From Prevotellaceae bacterium (lineage in GTDB: Bacteria; Bacteroidota; Bacteroidia; Bacteroidales; Paludibacteraceae): DNA of 34,464 nt. Positions 7,109 to 34,464 of the stretch are shown here, in pieces. The stretch lies in assembly GCA_031271005.1 (NCBI GenBank), contig JAISWT010000151.1, forward strand, positions 1-34,464. Direction: 5' to 3'. The notes beneath the pieces are model-generated. The model did no database searches, was not told the origin of the DNA, and saw nothing but the letters and a program-made list of their open reading frames with translations. The position numbers and the translations under genes are program-made. Position 1 is the first letter of the stretch. Each line of letters opens with the position of its first letter.

Positions 7109-7894
7109 TCAGTACAATATGCCATCAGGCATATGAATGGGGATGGCAGTTATCGAATTTTCGCTAAAACTGCTCTTGTAAGTTGCAAAAATCGCATCGC
7201 TTGTAATGGTGGCATCTAACCCGCCTTTACGTAAATCAACTGCGCCCAAAATAAAATAATATCTTTTGATTGTCATTCCTGTATTTCTGATAATTACCGA
7301 ACCGGATACAAAATTATACCGGTCGTTGGGTTCTTTGATGCCGCTTATTAATTTGTAGCCTGCCATGCTTGGAATACCCACATCGGGAGATATGTGTCTG
7401 CTTTCGGCATTGTCGCCAAAAGTTCCCCGAAACCACATTTTATAGTCATTAATTATCATTGATTCCGCAGGCATACCCTCCAGAAGACAAATCACATCTA
7501 CCCGCCACATTCCCGGAGGCAATTCAATGTATGCGCCTGTGTTAAGAAATAAAGAATCCGCTTCTGTCATTCCTAAGGATGAGGGTGGTATAGAAGAAGC
7601 GCCTATCTTCTTAAAAGGAAAATTGATTGTTTTATTTACAATATTGCCAAAGATAACGGGCGTTGTAATTTGTTTCCACGTGCCCACGCCGTCAGCATCG
7701 CACACCAAAGCAAAAGTTTCTCTTTCATTTCCGTCAACAAGGCGGAAACCCCTGCCTTTGACTGTTGCGGTGTCTTTTTGGACAATGTCCAAAGTCGTTT
7801 TCGGGGTATCGGTGTTGATACCCACCTGCGCGGACAGCGATTGTCCGCCGCTCATCAGGGCTAAAAAGCCCAAAATTAAAATACTCTTGTTCAT
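7109..7894 (-). CDS. Secreted surface protein, paralog of the gene at 34220
   Basis: The 261-residue product has a signal peptide (about 1-22, ending SLSAQ), followed by VGINTDTPKTTLDIV, a motif of the VGIGTxxPxxxLDV type found at the N-terminus of many Bacteroidota fibre- or tail-fibre-like surface proteins. The rest (about 45-261) appears beta-rich; I recognise no named domain or sorting signal. The gene starting at 34220 has nearly the same first 27 residues and a nearly identical leader DNA, but the proteins diverge afterwards. The start is fixed by the signal peptide and the shared leader. Upstream lie heptamer arrays and the structured element at 8262-8549. Function unknown; exposure at the surface is inferred. 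Confidence 0.8.
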   Translation of the reverse strand: MNKSILILGFLALMSGGQSLSAQVGINTDTPKTTLDIVQKDTATVKGRGFRLVDGNERETFALVCDADGVGTWKQITTPVIFGNIVNKTINFPFKKIGASSIPPSSLGMTEADSLFLNTGAYIELPPGMWRVDVICLLEGMPAESMIINDYKMWFRGTFGDNAESRHISPDVGIPSMAGYKLISGIKEPNDRYNFVSGSVIIRNTGMTIKRYYFILGAVDLRKGGLDATITSDAIFATYKSSFSENSITAIPIHMPDGILY

Positions 7895-8260
7895 TTTTGT
7901 AAAAATTTAAATTTAAAATGTTATTATTTTATTTATTATTAGTGAATAATTTATTAATTCAAAATTGAGAATTGAGAATTGAGAATTGCTATCTGCTATC
8001 TGCTACCTTGTGTCCTTTGTGAATTTCTTTGTGTGCCTTGTGGTAGAAAAATTAACCACAAAGGACACAAAGGCTGCACAAAGTTCAATAAATTTAGTCG
8101 TTTTGCGCGACTCGGCATAGCCAAAACATTGATTTCGCTTTCGCTCAATATCTGCTTTGTCTCTGCTCTCGCTGCTTAAAACGTTCACAATAGTCGCATT
8201 AGTTATTCATTATTTATTGTTCACTATTCATTATTCAAGTTTTGTTTCAAAAAAGACAAC
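7895..8260. repeat. Leader, heptamer array and palindromes upstream of the 7109 gene
   Basis: In the gene's sense: the 70 bases next to the ATG are nearly identical to those before the gene at 34220. Then come six in-register heptamers at 7965-8006 (TTGAGAA x3, TTGCTAT, CTGCTAT, CTGCTAC as read on plus). Next is an imperfect palindrome of CACAAAGG words at about 8008-8086. At 8099-8131 there is a 33-bp repeat also present at 13196-13228. ATTCATTA/TTCACTA heptamers follow at about 8203-8236. No gene is seen. Confidence 0.8.
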
Positions 8261-8304
8261 ATAAAAATAGCGTGGATGACCTGTCTGTAATCAGGTTACC
8301 ACGC
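8261..8304 (-). terminator. Terminator-like hairpin of element copy 1
   Basis: On the minus strand GCGTGG and ACCTG pair with CAGGT and CCACGC around a short loop, with a small internal loop, followed by TATTTTTAT. The stem is kept in copy 2 although the internal bases differ. Confidence 0.65.
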
Positions 8305-8549
8305 CTACAACTCTGGCAAGTCGCTCCACGCCGTATAACACGGTGTTTCACGGACTTATTCTTGAGTTGTAGCCTTCTGTATAAGGGCTTTGTGGTAAAT
8401 GATTACAAGAATATCTGTAAATCGCAAGATTCATTATGTTTGCACACGCTTGCGCATCGTGTTTTTTATCAATTATTTATTTACAAAAAAATATAAAACA
8501 AATTGATAAACATTTTTACTATATCTGCCTGTTTATAAGCATTTTAGCG
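8262..8549 (-). ncRNA. Structured RNA or leader element, copy 1
   Basis: This stretch, read on the minus strand, aligns along its whole length with 33553-33842. Its first 100 bases are almost identical to the other copy. The rest is less similar but keeps the hairpins: TGCGC/GTGCA (TGCGC/GCGCA in the other copy), ATTCTTG/CAAGAAT closing a domain, an inner hairpin AGCC-TT/AAGGCT, and CCGT with ACGG. It ends in a hairpin GCGTGG...CCACGC plus U-rich tail. A -7 box precedes it. It reads toward the gene at 7109-7894, about 370 bases away. I recognise no known RNA family; it could be a small RNA or an attenuated 5' leader. Confidence 0.6.
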
Positions 8550-8552
8550 TGG

Positions 8553-8560
8553 CAAAGTTA
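8553..8560 (-). promoter_or_regulatory. -7 box for element copy 1
   Basis: TAACTTTG on the minus strand fits TAnnTTTG and sits at the same place relative to the element as the full promoter of copy 2. No clear TTTG lies 19 bases upstream. Confidence 0.5.
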
Positions 8561-8651
8561 CAAAACATTTCGGAATAAAAAATATTTTTGAAAAAAAAAG
8601 TAAAAAAAATTTCAAAAAAGTTGGTTTGGGCACGAAAGTCCGCAAACAATT

Positions 8652-8782
8652 GGGGACACAATGCATTGTGCCCCTAATTGCTAATTGCTAATTGCTAATT
8701 GCTAATTGCTAATTGCTAACTGCTAACTGCTAACTGCTAACTGCTAACTGCTAACTGCTAATTGCTAATTGCTAATTGCTAA
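8652..8782. repeat. Palindrome and 15-unit heptamer array next to the stop of the 8785 gene
   Basis: A short palindrome (8652-8674, core CACAATGCATTGTG) is followed by 15 uninterrupted heptamers at 8678-8782: six TTGCTAA, six CTGCTAA and three TTGCTAA. The array ends two bases from the stop codon of the minus-strand gene. In that gene's sense the unit is TTAGCAA or TTAGCAG. Confidence 0.95.
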
Positions 8783-8784
8783 TC

Positions 8785-11700
8785 CTATTTCACAAGCAAT
8801 TTCTTCATAATTGTACGGTTGCTGTTTTCAATACGGATGAAGTAAAGCCCGCTGCCAAGATTCAAATCCAAACGTACCGTCCCGCTCACCGATGCGTATG
8901 TTTCAAGCGTTTTGCCTGACAGGTCAATGATGCTCAGCGATGAATTATCCGGAACAGATGAAACATACACTGCGCCTGTTGCAGGGTTTGGATAAACTGT
9001 AATGTAATCCTGCCGGATAGCCTGCACCCAGTCGCTTGTGTGAGAATAAACAGTATATAATCCTGCTATCTCAGCATTGTTACCAATTTTCCCCAAATCT
9101 GTTGCGGCGCCTGTTTGTGGATTTAATTCAACGAGCCTGCCTCTGTCAAAGTCATACATTAAATCGTACATAGCCCAAAACAAACGTCCTGTATTGTGGT
9201 CGAATGTCATGCTTTGAAGGTAGGCAGGCAGAATTTCCGTATCTCCAACAGGAGTCAGTTCGCCGGTGGTTTTATCTACGGTAACCAAATATCCGGAGCG
9301 TTCAATGCCATACAACTGCCCGTTCAAATCGGCGGCAAGCGTAAACAGATAAGTCGAAGCGGGAAGAGATACAACAGGCGCCAATGCGCCGTTTTCCATA
9401 TTTACCGTATTCAATACCGATATTAAAGTTTGAGGATTGAGCGTAAGGGCATACATTGTGTTTGTTGAATAGTCGTAAGTTATATCGGCAAACAATATAT
9501 TTGGCGCAGAAACTTTTGAAACTTCCGTCCAGTCGCTTTTTAATTTAACAAAATTGACCGACTCGTAGTTTCCGTTTCCTGTATATCCGTAAATAAATCC
9601 GTCAACATATTCCGCTGCGCAAATCACATTTCCATTGTCGCGGTAACGATATTCCGTTGTTACTGTTTCGGGGTTATAACTGCTGAATGATACGTTTGCG
9701 AACAAGTCATCCATTGTCATCGTTCCGTCTTCGTATGCCGCGTCCCAAAGCCTGTAACCGTACAGCGTAACGTTTTTAAGGAAATTGAACGAAACGCTTG
9801 CCGTATCATTGCTTATATCGCCGTCATTCGGCAATTTTGTGTACGATTTGATATTGAAGGTTTTATATTCGGTCAAATCAACCGTACTTTCAAATGTAAA
9901 TTCTGCGGTTTGGCGCGGGGCAATTGTACCTGTGAAATTTTCAACTGTTTCTGCGCCTCCGTTCAGCGAGTAAGCAACGGGGAATGCAGAAACCGCATTT
10001 GAACCGTAGTTTTCGATTAGCACTTTCACTTGCGCCGCTTGGTTCCCGCCTGCTAAGGGCGCAATAATTTTGTTCACTCCTGCATCTTGCGGGTGCGGCT
10101 CAAAACATAAAACGCTGGCTTCCCAGCCGGGCGCCTCCGTGTTTTTGTGCTTGTCAAAAACAAATGTCAGCGAGCCATCGGCTGCTCTTGAACGGATAGC
10201 AGGCGGCAAATTATTGGTTAAATCGCCCGACAAAGCGGCAAGCAGTTCATTTTCGGCGGCAGCGCTGCCACTGTAAATAAACAAAGTATCTCCCGGTAAT
10301 TTGTATATCGTACCAAACCATTCGTGTGTTTCAAAGGGCTTTGAAAAGAAACTCGTAAATTCTACTTTCAGTCGATTTTCAGAGATTGCAGGATAGAAGG
10401 TAATGGTTTGCGTCTCTTTTCCGTCAGTTGGCGGTCCAAAATAATTGCCGGACATTCCGTCATCCATAAATTGAATATTGCAGGCAGTTACCGTTGCATC
10501 TGTGCCGATAACGGCTACATTTCCGTTGTTTGTTACGGTTACGGTTGCAGTGTCATTACGCGAGTCTATGTCGTTTTCAACCAAAGTATAAACTTTGATA
10601 TTGTAGTCTTTGACTTCCGAAAGGTTGGCTTTTGTTGGGAACGAATATTCTACTTCCGCATTTACGGGCAAGTCGGGTATGCTACCTTCAATTACGGTTG
10701 TTTCGTTGATTTCTGCTTTTACGGGGAAATCGGATAGAGGCAAAGAACCGAAATTTTTCACCCTAATTGTAATGGTTTCTTCGGTTGAGCGGTTTTCGCC
10801 GCTAACGGGACTTATAATTGCCGTTACTCCGGCATCCGCACCTGTAATTTTATCTATGCTTATATCATCCACGTACCATCCATGCGCAATAGTAGCGTTG
10901 TAACGAAAAGCAATATAAATGTCCTTGCCTGCGTAGTCGGTCAAAGGCAGTTTTGTTTCAACCCATGAATCGCTGACTGATGCAGGCGACCATATTTCTA
11001 CAAAACCATTGTCAGCGCTTGCAGGGTCAGCATTGCCTTGGGAAATCCATACGCTGTTGCCGCCGCTTGGATACCAGTCGGGAAAATCATTATACGACCA
11101 GAACGACAGTTGGTAAATTTCTTCAGCAGGAATGGATATTTTAGGCGAAACAAACCAGTCGTCTTGATGAATGCCTGCATCGTTGTAGTTGTGCCCAATG
11201 GACTTTGTGCCCGACCGTACAAATGACGAGTATGCTCCCCATACATTGTCCGTTGTTTGAGCAACAGCGTAATTTGTCCAGCAAAGCAGTTTAAGTACAT
11301 CTTCGGCGCCTTCTTCGTAGGGGAACGACGGCTCTTGGCAGGTTACGCTGATAACCGTTGCTGTGGCGGTATCGTTTTCAGGTATTGCATCGTCAGGCAA
11401 TTCTGTAAAGGCTTTGAGAGTATAGGTTTTTGCTTCCGATAAATCTACGGTCTCTGTAAATTCATATTCTATTTCTTCTTCGCGGGCAACGGCGAGAACA
11501 TTGCCGGTCAGAACAACAATATTGTCAATTTTCAACTTTACGGGAACATTGGTAAGAGGTTCTATTCCGTAATTTTTCACTTTTATTTTAACCTTTTCCG
11601 TTGTGCTGTGCTCGCCGTCTCGGGGAGAGAGAATAGCCGTTACTCCGGCGTCAAAGTCGGAAATCTGTTCGATTTGAAAATCGTCCAGCCACCATTGATG

Positions 11701-12768
11701 CGCATCTTGCCCTTCGTACCGGAAAGCAATGTAGATGTCTTTTCCGGCATATTCATCCAGGTCGATTTTTGTTTGCACCCAATCGTCAATAACTTCGTCT
11801 GGCGACCATACCTGTTCAAAATCACCGCTTTCAGGATCGCCGCTGCCTTCGGAAATCAGCAAGGAGTTTCGTTTATCCAAGTCAGTATCATAAAGCGTAT
11901 AAAAACGGTTATACGACCAAAATGAAAGGAGAGAATGACCGCTTGTCGGAACAGATATTTTAGGAGAGACCAGCCAGCCATCCTGATGAATGGAGTAATG
12001 ATCGGAATGATGAATAGAACGGTTTCCCGAATGAGAGTATTCTGTTCCTGTCTGCCAGTTTACGCCTGCCCCATCTCCATCATAGTCATAAAAGTTCCAG
12101 CAAGGCAGGGTAGCGTCATCTTCCCATCCTTCTTTGCAGGGAAATTCCGTAACAGCGCACACTACATTAACCACTTTATTTATTTTTATATCGTCCACAT
12201 ACCATCCGTGCGTATAGGTGGCGTTGTAACGAAAAGCAATGTAAATGTCCTTGCCTGCATAATTCTCCAAACTGAGTTTTGTTTCAACCCACGAGTCGCT
12301 AACCGATGCGGGCGACCATATTTCCACAAAACCATTGTTAGCGCTTGTGGGGTCTGCGCCGCTTTCGGAAATCCACACGCTGTTGCCTCCCTGAGGATAC
12401 CAGTCGGGGTATTCATTCCAAGACCAGAACGACAGTTGGTGAATGCCTTCGGCGGGAATGGAAATTTTGGGCGACACGAGCCAGTTGTCTAAATAAACGC
12501 CTTCGCTTCCCCATTTGTGATACAGGGCATTTGGTCCGGAATGACCTCCATTTGTTGAAACTTCCCATATCTGCTCGGTTGCGGCAGCGGAATAATTTGT
12601 CCAGCAGAGCCATAATGCGGTTTCATCCTCGGCGCTTTCTTCGTAGGGGAACAACGAAATGTTGCAGCCTTCTGTACTCGCTACTCTTTCCTTTTCTTGC
12701 GATTGTACTTGCCCGTTTAACGAATAAAACGACAAAACAATAATTAACAGGGTCATTGATATTCTCAT
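8785..12768 (-). CDS. Large modular T9SS cargo protein with cleaved-adhesin/choice-of-anchor J and CARDB-like domains
   Basis: The 1327-residue protein begins with a signal peptide (about 1-24) and ends with a type IX secretion sorting domain (about 1250-1327: VYPNPATGAVYV, LSIIDLSGKTLETY, SGLYFIRI, MKKLLVK). Between them I see three cleaved-adhesin/choice-of-anchor J modules (about 38-200, 205-370, 478-640), each with the motifs WLVSPKISIP and DIYIAFRY plus a following W-x-(V/L)-DD. Three CARDB-like Ig modules (about 372-475, 643-745, 890-990) begin DAGV. A CUB-like domain lies at about 750-885, and a propeller-like segment at about 1000-1240. No protease catalytic motif is evident, so adhesion or glycan binding is more likely than peptidase activity. 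It should be exported through the outer membrane and anchored or released. Confidence 0.88.
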   Translation of the reverse strand: MRISMTLLIIVLSFYSLNGQVQSQEKERVASTEGCNISLFPYEESAEDETALWLCWTNYSAAATEQIWEVSTNGGHSGPNALYHKWGSEGVYLDNWLVSPKISIPAEGIHQLSFWSWNEYPDWYPQGGNSVWISESGADPTSANNGFVEIWSPASVSDSWVETKLSLENYAGKDIYIAFRYNATYTHGWYVDDIKINKVVNVVCAVTEFPCKEGWEDDATLPCWNFYDYDGDGAGVNWQTGTEYSHSGNRSIHHSDHYSIHQDGWLVSPKISVPTSGHSLLSFWSYNRFYTLYDTDLDKRNSLLISEGSGDPESGDFEQVWSPDEVIDDWVQTKIDLDEYAGKDIYIAFRYEGQDAHQWWLDDFQIEQISDFDAGVTAILSPRDGEHSTTEKVKIKVKNYGIEPLTNVPVKLKIDNIVVLTGNVLAVAREEEIEYEFTETVDLSEAKTYTLKAFTELPDDAIPENDTATATVISVTCQEPSFPYEEGAEDVLKLLCWTNYAVAQTTDNVWGAYSSFVRSGTKSIGHNYNDAGIHQDDWFVSPKISIPAEEIYQLSFWSYNDFPDWYPSGGNSVWISQGNADPASADNGFVEIWSPASVSDSWVETKLPLTDYAGKDIYIAFRYNATIAHGWYVDDISIDKITGADAGVTAIISPVSGENRSTEETITIRVKNFGSLPLSDFPVKAEINETTVIEGSIPDLPVNAEVEYSFPTKANLSEVKDYNIKVYTLVENDIDSRNDTATVTVTNNGNVAVIGTDATVTACNIQFMDDGMSGNYFGPPTDGKETQTITFYPAISENRLKVEFTSFFSKPFETHEWFGTIYKLPGDTLFIYSGSAAAENELLAALSGDLTNNLPPAIRSRAADGSLTFVFDKHKNTEAPGWEASVLCFEPHPQDAGVNKIIAPLAGGNQAAQVKVLIENYGSNAVSAFPVAYSLNGGAETVENFTGTIAPRQTAEFTFESTVDLTEYKTFNIKSYTKLPNDGDISNDTASVSFNFLKNVTLYGYRLWDAAYEDGTMTMDDLFANVSFSSYNPETVTTEYRYRDNGNVICAAEYVDGFIYGYTGNGNYESVNFVKLKSDWTEVSKVSAPNILFADITYDYSTNTMYALTLNPQTLISVLNTVNMENGALAPVVSLPASTYLFTLAADLNGQLYGIERSGYLVTVDKTTGELTPVGDTEILPAYLQSMTFDHNTGRLFWAMYDLMYDFDRGRLVELNPQTGAATDLGKIGNNAEIAGLYTVYSHTSDWVQAIRQDYITVYPNPATGAVYVSSVPDNSSLSIIDLSGKTLETYASVSGTVRLDLNLGSGLYFIRIENSNRTIMKKLLVK

Positions 12769-33157: not shown

Positions 33158-33518
33158 AATTACAAAAAATAAGGGAATTTCTAAAAATTAGATTATTTTA
33201 GGAATTCCCAAAAACAAATTGTCCTAATCGGAATTTTATTTATCCTGATAAAGAAACCTGTTTAGATTTTTTCAAAATAATTTAACAGCAAAGGACGTAA
33301 AGATTGTCCCGCCAAAGCGGGAGTCCTTTTTTAAAAAATCTCTGTGTAACTCTGTGAAACCTCCCGCTTTGGCGGGACAAGTTCCGTGTCTCTCTGTGAA
33401 ATTTATTTTTCACAGAGGGACACAGAGTTGTGAAAATCTCCCGCTTTGGCGGGACAAGTTTTGCGGATTTAAGGTATTCTGTTAATTTTGAAAATTATGT
33501 AAAAAAAAATAATAAAAA
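33158..33518. repeat. Repeat cluster with three copies of the 16-bp palindrome
   Basis: Imperfect palindromes of CACAGAG/CTCTGTG words, an inverted relative of the repeats at 151-360, contain 16-bp palindrome copies at 33307-33322, 33362-33377 and 33439-33454. No gene is seen. Confidence 0.8.
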
Positions 33519-33549
33519 TTTGCGGTTAAAAAATAAAGTATTAAATTTG
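33519..33549 (+). promoter_or_regulatory. Consensus promoter of the structured element, copy 2
   Basis: TTTG at 33519-33522, exactly 19 bases, then TAAATTTG at 33542-33549. Transcription should begin a few bases later and run through the conserved element toward the gene at 34220. Confidence 0.8.
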
Positions 33550-33552
33550 CAT

Positions 33553-33842
33553 CGCTAAAATGCTTATAAACAGGCAGATATAGTAAAAATGTTTATCAAT
33601 TAGTTTTATATTTTTTACAAATAAATAATTTGATAAAAATACGATGCGCAAGCGTGCGCAGAAAATAATAAGATTAGTGATTTGCTAAAATTCTTGATTA
33701 TCATTTTCCACAAATTTAACCCAAATTGGGTTTTCCTTCAAGAATAAGTTTGCGAAGCGTCGCTTTTGCGGCGTGGAACGACTTGCCGGAAGGATAGGCG
33801 TGGAAACCTGATAATCAGACAGGTTGTTCCACGCTATTTTTA
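33553..33842 (+). ncRNA. Structured RNA or leader element, copy 2
   Basis: This is the plus-strand relative of 8262-8549. The first 100 bases (33556 to about 33660) are nearly identical to copy 1. Then hairpins are kept while sequences differ: TGCGC/GCGCA near 33645-33660; ATTCTTG (33690-33696) with CAAGAAT (33739-33745) enclosing AACCC/GGGTT; CGAAGC/GCTTTTG near 33753-33768; and the terminal hairpin at 33798-33834 with U-rich tail. Expected RNA length is about 290 nt. It does not show the signature sequences I know for RNase P, tmRNA, SRP or 6S RNA. It lies about 380 bases upstream of the surface-protein gene. Confidence 0.63.
33798..33841 (+). terminator. Terminator-like hairpin of element copy 2
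   Basis: GCGTGGAA and ACCTG (33798-33810) pair with CAGGT and TTCCACGC (33820-33834), followed by TATTTTTAT. An upstream stretch (33771-33782) can pair instead with 33823-33834 over 12 positions, so the stem has a built-in competitor. Confidence 0.7.
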
Positions 33843-33845
33843 TGT

Positions 33846-34219
33846 TTACACCTCACCCCCGGCCCCTCCCCGAAGGAGAAGGGAGAAGGACGCAAAACGT
33901 AGGTAAATAATTAACAATTAACAATTAATAGTGAATAGTGAATAGTGAATAATAAAATACAGAATACGCAGCAATTAATAATGAAGGAATGAAAAAATGA
34001 ATAATGAACAATGAATAATGAATAATGAATAACTAATGCAACTATTGTGCTCTTTGTGCAACCTCCCGCTTTGGCGGGATAAATTCACAAAGGGCACAAA
34101 GTAGCAATTAGCAGATAGCAATTTTAAATTCTCAATTCTCAATTCTCAATTCTCAATTCTCAATTTTGAATTAATAATTATTCAAAAAAATAACATTTTA
34201 AATTTAAATTTTTACAAAA
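33846..34219. repeat. Repeat-rich region and conserved leader of the 34220 gene
   Basis: In order: GC-rich REP-like repeat (33847-33886); heptamers TTAACAA/TTAATAG/TGAATAG in register (33911-33952); TGAATAA-type heptamers (about 33998-34031); a CTTTGTG/CACAAAG palindrome enclosing the 16-bp palindrome (34064-34079). Eleven heptamers in register follow at 34101-34177 (GTAGCAA, TTAGCAG, ATAGCAA, TTTTAAA, TTCTCAA x5, TTTTGAA, TTAATAA). The last 50 bases are almost the same as those before the gene at 7109-7894. No gene is seen. Confidence 0.85.
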
Positions 34220-34464
34220 ATGAAAAAGAGTATTTTAATTTTGGGCTTAACAGCCCTGATGAGCGGCGGACAATTTCTGTCCGCGCAAGTGGGTATCAAC
34301 AACGAAACCCCTGCAGCAACCCTCGATGTGGCTGCACAAAAAACTGACGGCACAACTGCCGAAGGCTTCATCGCCCCGCGACTCACGCTTGCGCAACTCA
34401 ACGCTAAGCAGGCGCAGTATGGCGAGGCGCAGACAGGAGCCAGCGTGTACATCACAGACGCTAC
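34220..34464 (+). CDS. Secreted surface protein, 5' part only (paralog of the 7109 gene)
   Basis: The frame opens with ATG at 34220 and continues past the window end, giving 81 residues. It has a signal peptide (about 1-22, MKKSILILGLTALMSGG, ending LSAQ), then VGINNETPAATLDV, which matches VGINTDTPKTTLDI in the protein at 7109-7894. After residue 30 the two diverge: here the text (GFIAPRLTLAQLNAKQAQY) is typical of Bacteroidota fibre-like surface proteins. The first 27 residues and the upstream leader are conserved between the paralogs, as is the structured element further upstream. The full length and C-terminal signal cannot be seen. Confidence 0.8.
   Translation, partial: MKKSILILGLTALMSGGQFLSAQVGINNETPAATLDVAAQKTDGTTAEGFIAPRLTLAQLNAKQAQYGEAQTGASVYITDA

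Follow-up and report, generated by a model that had tools for sequence, protein, structure and literature searches.

Only a small number of cis-acting RNA regulators have been described in the Bacteroidota, a phylum that dominates animal guts and relies on rapid surface-protein changes. FopS and GibS (PMC11697453, PMC7366714) share with the element described here their nature of multicopy Bacteroidales RNAs, the sigma-ABfr promoters and the linkage to surface transport genes. FopS is, however, ~65-70 nt long by northern blot, lies mostly in intergenic or antisense position and acts in trans via a 5′ seed (PMC11697453), whereas our element has a ~175-nt core whose place ahead of a gene is fixed; given this difference in size and architecture, identity with FopS was rejected. 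The DUF805 RNA (RF03081) is a cis-regulatory RNA and occurs in the same leaders at three loci, but it is a separate 68-nt element located downstream of the core RNA. In Flavobacterium psychrophilum, structured 5′ elements without Rfam hits and conserved in Flavobacteriaceae have been reported (PMC9723704); these are undescribed 5′ cis-regulatory RNAs, and the named ones (pheA, hisG, ftsY, acsA, alaS, rimP) precede different genes (PMC9723704). With terminating riboswitches and attenuator leaders the element has in common the 5′-leader position, a promoter of its own, exclusive folds, a U tract and a gene shortly downstream. It differs from terminating riboswitches in that no Rfam 15 model fits, the helix X:T3′ has a long loop as well as crossing helix A, unrelated genes are preceded by numerous copies in each genome and no ligand is known for the core RNA.

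Scanning Rfam 15 with the window (the whole stretch of 34,464 nucleotides analysed here) and about 60 loci gave no match over the core at gathering score, and permissive Rfam scans of three cores returned nothing or sub-threshold hits of microRNA or sRNA type. Published RNA discovery surveys covering 26 and 50 bacterial genomes mention no Bacteroides, Parabacteroides, Porphyromonas or Prevotella, and the earlier motif lists consulted concern other elements. A first-pass annotation, made from the sequence alone, had called the element apparently undescribed, and this held against Rfam 15, where no family matches. The RNA family is likely to be undescribed, with the reservation that subscription papers, bioRxiv preprints and supplements lay outside the search and that a prior description is possible.

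Two copies of the element in the window

The window contains two copies of the element, whose promoters and U tract were read directly from the sequence.

33553-33843, plus strand: element copy 1, structured RNA with a U tract at its end
8261-8549, minus strand: element copy 2, second copy of the same RNA
33519-33549, plus strand: promoter of copy 1, TTTG (33519-33522), N19 and TAAATTTG (33542-33549), exact match
8553-8560, minus strand: -7 promoter box of copy 2, TAACTTTG
33835-33843, plus strand: U tract of copy 1, TATTTTTAT

The copies aligned end to end over 292 columns with 78% identity, the first 115 columns being 90% and the remainder 70% identical. A hairpin and a U tract close both copies (33835-33843, plus strand; 8261-8269, minus strand), and the minus copy has only the -7 box of a promoter. 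The first-pass annotation was confirmed on all these points, namely an end-to-end alignment with about 100 nearly identical bases, an exact TTTG-N19-TAAATTTG promoter on the copy at 33553 with a -7 box (TAACTTTG) on the other, and a hairpin plus U tract at both ends. The resemblance is far beyond chance: BLAST returned 19 strong matches from the same genome, and covariation was higher than in any of the controls.

The window linkers carry short tandem units (AATTAGC, CTCAATT, TGAATAG) at 33300-33480, 33850-34200, 8560-8790 and 7930-8240, and are also filled with CCTCCCGCTTTGGCGGGA inverted repeats; as far as seen, such linkers are restricted to this genome. The gene of a secreted-looking protein of 1327 aa (8785-12768, minus strand), which contains repeated modules and has a sorting-like tail at its C-terminus, stops ~225 nt short of the start of the second RNA copy.

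Copies in the same genome

A BLAST search of the complete genome of origin (2.8 Mb, 245 contigs) with the element identified 20 places, 19 of them strong. About ten were full length; in the others the similarity was limited to the promoter plus the initial ~90-130 nt, followed by a different body, which by two covariance models mostly had the same architecture in another sequence. The union of the two models comprised 22 core copies in this genome, both window copies included. The 5′ part of the element shows the following features.

33554-33660, plus strand: 5′ module, conserved GCTAAAATGC...TAAAAATG, common to ~19 paralogues in the same genome
33592-33637, plus strand: AT-rich hairpin in the 5′ module
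33645-33660, plus strand: hairpin TGCGCAAGCGTGCGCA in the 5′ module

The first ~110 nt were conserved among the paralogues of this genome only, and strong matches in other genomes began at query position 118 or later. We also observed that promoter and 5′ module hardly vary from one paralogue to the next, although two diverged classes of RNA body follow them; at two places (C164, C113) the 5′ module stands alone, without a body. This mosaic of a 5′ module and two body classes hints at recombination or gene conversion, which we regard as a possibility.

Structure of the core RNA

Only the 3′ ~175 nt of the element (33665-33843 in the plus copy) are widely conserved. The features of this core are listed below, together with the corresponding strands of the second copy.

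33665-33843, plus strand: core structured RNA, covariance-model match 33665-33840 at 182.8 bits, plus the U tract
33674-33688, plus strand: P0 hairpin TTAGTGATTTGCTAA, by covariation analysis
33690-33745, plus strand: S1:S1′ helix, ATTCTTG (33690-33696) with CAAGAAT (33739-33745), crossing A and B; proposed termination-state helix
33695-33817, plus strand: helix A, TGATTATCA (33695-33703) with TGATAATCA (33809-33817); proposed read-through-state helix
33705-33711 with 33800-33806, plus strand: helix A2, TTTCCAC with GTGGAAA; proposed read-through-state helix
33718-33732, plus strand: variable hairpin H, AACCCAAATTGGGTT, seen in the sequence and weakly aligned
33734-33794, plus strand: helix B, TCCTTC (33734-33739) with GAAGGA (33789-33794)
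33746-33784, plus strand: PX hairpin, AAGTT...GACTT, inner stem GCGTCGC/GCGGCGT
33770-33834, plus strand: X:T3′ helix, X GGCGTGGAACGACTTG (33770-33785) with T3′ CAGGTTGTTCCACGC (33820-33834); alternative helix abutting the U tract
8264-8437, minus strand: core of the second copy, covariance-model match at 158.2 bits
Minus strand: 5′ strands of the second copy, S1 8406-8412, A5′ 8400-8406, A2 8392-8398, B5′ 8364-8370, S1′ 8358-8364
Minus strand: 3′ strands of the second copy, X 8317-8332, B3′ 8307-8313, A2′ 8296-8302, A3′ 8287-8293
Minus strand: 3′ end of the second copy, T3′ 8270-8283, U tract 8261-8269

The strands follow each other in the order S1, A5′, A2, B5′, S1′, PX5′, X, B3′, A2′, A3′, T3′ and U tract. 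A conserved ACC separates A and A2 on the 3′ side, the outer 9 pairs of X:T3′ were 100% paired, and the 5′ strand of P0 could alternatively pair with the U tract (P1), with weak support. The helices initially proposed from the two window copies turned out to be partly right: the invariant ATTCTTG/CAAGAAT stem held as S1:S1′, the pairing of CGAAGC/GCTTTTG in one copy versus AACAC/GTGTT with CCGT/ACGG in the other was not supported, unlike GCGTCGC/GCGGCGT, and the long-range helices A, A2, B and X:T3′ had been missed.

Covariation of the helices

The stem search on an alignment of 24 cores (A1) started from no assumed structure; most of the stems that it ranked highest were the helices described above and, given the structure, pairing and covariation were above shuffles and all slid versions. 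In a phylogeny-aware test of 86 sequences against a tree-simulated null, performed with a simplified R-scape written for this analysis, 8 pairs reached E<=0.07, all of them within A, A2 or B, and these three helices showed compensatory changes, with as many as five pair types seen for one base pair. Helix A was 93% paired in the divergent set (A5), where several individual pairs occurred as four or five pair types. In sequences from other orders, which lay outside model building, it was 98.8% paired and 6 of 7 pairs had changed on both sides; this alignment was fitted to the model and consequently leans to the structure.

The partner-swap test compared the own partner of a strand with partners from other sequences in 2000 swaps. 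None of the swaps was as good (0/2000) for A/A2, B, PX5:X, X:T3′ and S1:S1′ in group 1. For X:T3′ the swaps as good were 0/2000 in the divergent set and 116/2000 in the other orders, with seven sequences only; for the S1 helix they were 132/2000 and 0/2000, respectively. Two candidate helices were not retained as conserved parts of the structure. The P1 closing helix, formed by 5′ AAAAATAGCG with the U tract, was visible, with only weak support (146/2000 swaps as good). The local A3′:T3′ hairpin, stable in group 1, was demoted as a conserved terminator, since it showed no covariation (821/2000) and was absent from divergent members.

Compensatory changes beyond phylogenetic and shuffled controls make it very likely that the element is a structured RNA under selection, a conclusion about as certain as sequence allows. 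The same inference had been drawn at the outset from pairing preserved under change, and it held, the covariance search giving many significantly covarying pairs.

Distribution in the Bacteroidota

A covariance model of the ~175-nt core (R1) detected the RNA in 24 of 199 relatives and in 40 of 393 genomes of the order Bacteroidales, and it had no match beyond the genome of origin in a 396-genome sample of the phylum. The second model (R2), built from divergent members, detected it in 119 of 295 Bacteroidales genomes at E<=0.001 (about 40%) and in 60 of 396 genomes sampled across the Bacteroidota at E<=1e-4; covariance E-values are rough, the calibration having been short. Nine or more copies per genome were frequent, and the R2 copy numbers are to be read as "at least" on account of a per-genome scoring cap. 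A strict DNA pattern matched 22 named contigs, all of Bacteroidales-type assemblies, Candidatus Azobacteroides among them; the assemblies of these contigs probably belong largely to the termite-gut series. No match to the core was found in the phage, plasmid and viral-contig collections searched. This phylum-wide spread, the two-state architecture and the tie to small HTH proteins go beyond the first-pass annotation.

Genes downstream of the RNA

Both window copies read toward genes with the same N-terminus, which confirmed the initial assignment of the two genes to one N-terminal surface-protein family.

34220-34464, plus strand: downstream gene of copy 1, ATG at 34220, MKKSILILGLTALMSGGQFLSAQVGINNETP..., surface-protein gene running off the contig
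7109-7894, minus strand: downstream gene of copy 2, 261 aa, MNKSILILGFLALMSGGQSLSAQVGINTDTP..., paralogue

The 261-aa protein (7109-7894, minus strand) had no Pfam match. In the genome of origin, 13 copies precede paralogous MKKSILILG...QVGINT surface-protein genes, with the N-terminal pattern M(K/N)K(S/G)ILI(L/W)G...QVG(I/V)N, and a few other copies precede different exported proteins or mini-HTH genes.

The context was surveyed at 99 non-redundant loci, 93 of the loci being assessable for the downstream ORF. A same-strand ORF of at least 60 aa started within 200 nt of the core in 84 of these 93 (median 52 nt). The sequence TAnnTTTG occurred within 180 nt upstream at 65 of the 99 loci, a median of 65 nt before the core, as compared to 22 on the antisense strand and 10.9 in shuffles; there was no promoter excess between RNA and gene (TAnnTTTG in 5/99 loci versus 5.9 in shuffles). 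Of the 84 downstream proteins, 52 had a stretch of hydrophobic residues among their first 45, a rough indication of export. The downstream proteins include SusC/TonB plug, FISUMP (Fib_succ_major), Lcl_C, beta-helix, Kelch and cohesin proteins, ABC transporter, TetR, HTH and FHA proteins and many without a Pfam match. A mobile repeat, which the first-pass annotation had proposed as a refutation, would be MITE-like, with random neighbours and no orientation bias. This criterion was not met: the neighbours are non-random, with the same-strand ORF in 84/93 loci and 13 copies before the same family in the genome of origin.

Association with small HTH proteins

Small Cro/C1-type proteins starting with HIGxLI(K/R) recur downstream of the RNA. 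A profile search found these HIG-HTH proteins in 20 of 119 Bacteroidales genomes at the cut-off used, and the 12 best-scoring genes for which sequence was available all had the RNA 0-100 nt upstream in the correct orientation. One of these 12 loci (L226) was weak (E 0.005); nine were not seeds, some of them sharing genera with seeds. Beyond the best 12, the RNA was upstream at L216 and at the L220/L232 locus only. The same arrangement was found in Phocaeicola massiliensis (model E 1e-18), the copy of which was among the sequences building R2; in Parabacteroides distasonis and Bacteroides finegoldii it was recognised by eye alone. In other orders (L234-L239) the RNA lies ~225 nt ahead of a conserved gene with a SusC-like N-terminus (MNYFSFYKxGKALYCLF...), and several loci have a small divergent HTH gene on the far (upstream) side of the RNA. 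The idea of the HTH protein as an obligatory partner was weakened: because many RNA-bearing genomes lack the HTH, we consider it a frequent target or partner and not a requirement.

Two incompatible folds and a model of attenuation

Both the rod (A, A2 and B with PX) and the alternative set of helices (S1:S1′ with X:T3′) covary. They cannot co-exist as simple nested folds, because S1:S1′ crosses A and B and X serves both PX and T3′; PX and X:T3′ both prefer their own partners, therefore X satisfies two partners, PX5′ and T3′. The core meets the criterion of two mutually exclusive folds, one of which has a helix abutting the U tract. In constrained folding the rod was below the alternative by a mean of 8.3 kcal/mol in group 1, with a wide range, and calculated energies favoured it in 22 of 24 sequences. 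Since the rod is lower in calculated energy, termination would need kinetics or a trigger. The last rod strand is transcribed ahead of T3′. The plain reading, in which termination and switching are inferred, is that the read-through fold is the default and the termination fold is triggered or kinetically chosen. A permanent pseudoknot mixing parts of both helix sets is possible and is not excluded.

The best explanation in our opinion is a cis-acting transcription attenuator, to which we lean without being able to assert it: there are no transcript data, and transcription, termination, switching and the trigger are all inferred. What has been shown in its support is the conservation, the covariation of both folds, the upstream promoter, the close same-strand gene and the lack of a promoter excess in between. 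According to this model, the ~175-nt structured 5′-leader RNA would alternate between two folds that exclude each other. For read-through, the 5′ strands of A, A2 and B would pair with their 3′ partners into a long rod capped by PX, leaving T3′ and the U tract unpaired, and RNA polymerase would proceed into the gene. In the termination fold, S1 would pair with S1′, disrupting A and B, and X would quit PX and pair with T3′, forming a strong helix that directly abuts the U tract. The balance of the folds would depend on an unidentified trigger, be it a metabolite, an ion, a protein or another RNA, and in the genome of origin about 22 copies would govern dispersed genes, mostly for paralogous surface proteins, as one regulon. 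Against attenuation stand the long loop of X:T3′ (~35-50 nt), unusual for an intrinsic terminator, and the linker to the gene, which in the genome of origin measures several hundred nt and contains simple repeats. A further point against it is that the downstream genes are diverse and therefore suggest no ligand.

Alternative explanations

The copies could be free-standing trans-acting small RNAs, similar to FopS, that always end at the U tract and act on other mRNAs. Their own promoter, the terminator-like end and the many paralogues per genome, as in the multicopy sRNA families known in Bacteroides (FopS, PMC11697453), would fit. We consider this unlikely, however, since the next gene is consistently near and in the same orientation with no promoter between, all 12 best-scoring mini-HTH loci have the RNA directly upstream, FopS measures only ~65-70 nt on northern blots, and a sponge or seed RNA has no need of two incompatible covarying folds. 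Even less support exists for a protein-sensing leader, through which the HIG mini-HTH, a ribosomal protein or another RNA-binding protein would control its own synthesis and other leaders, the binding being only inferred. In its favour are the 12/12 best-scoring HIG-HTH loci with the RNA 0-100 nt upstream, 9 of them non-seed, and the same arrangement in Phocaeicola massiliensis, with examples from Parabacteroides and Bacteroides recognised by eye. On the other hand, the HTH was found in 20/119 Bacteroidales genomes as against 40% for the RNA, the RNA-rich genomes G076 and G079 have no HTH match, and HTH domains of the Cro/C1 type normally bind DNA; we regard the hypothesis as unlikely.

A DNA-level element, either a MITE-like inverted repeat or a recombination site, would account for the many copies per genome, the partly complementary outer ends (P1) and the 5′ module joined to two different bodies in the genome of origin. 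It is made very unlikely by compensatory changes in which one pair can take as many as five pair types, by crossing helices, by the single fixed orientation toward the gene with the promoter on a fixed side, and by the absence of any core match from the phage, plasmid or viral collections that were searched.

The attenuator remains the preferred reading. A bolder reading, which can be put forward only as a possibility, would combine a new, phylum-wide class of RNA switch (riboswitch or protein-responsive leader), a multi-locus regulon of the surface proteome and the HIG mini-HTH as an ancient autoregulated partner. A leader RNA of this spread (~40% of sampled Bacteroidales genomes, often with nine or more copies), standing before surface and regulatory genes and having two selected alternative folds, would be among the largest unexplained RNA regulons of the Bacteroidota. 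It is directly testable, as copies adjoin HTH genes in Phocaeicola from the human gut, which can be cultured, and, judged by eye, in Parabacteroides and Bacteroides.

Other elements in the leaders

The DUF805 RNA was located between the core RNA and the gene body at L038 (1753-1821), L042 (1783-1850) and L059 (1713-1780), where its in-frame translation gives an N-terminal stretch resembling METGNHFKNGASPKSLM. Just past the U tract and before the start codon, a motif similar to TTTGGGGCTGGGGCAAAC recurs at L177, L179, L182, L187, L194 and L202, and a second recurrent motif, GTTGCxCCCGACACAAAT..AGGGA, is present at L093, L101, L108 and L133.
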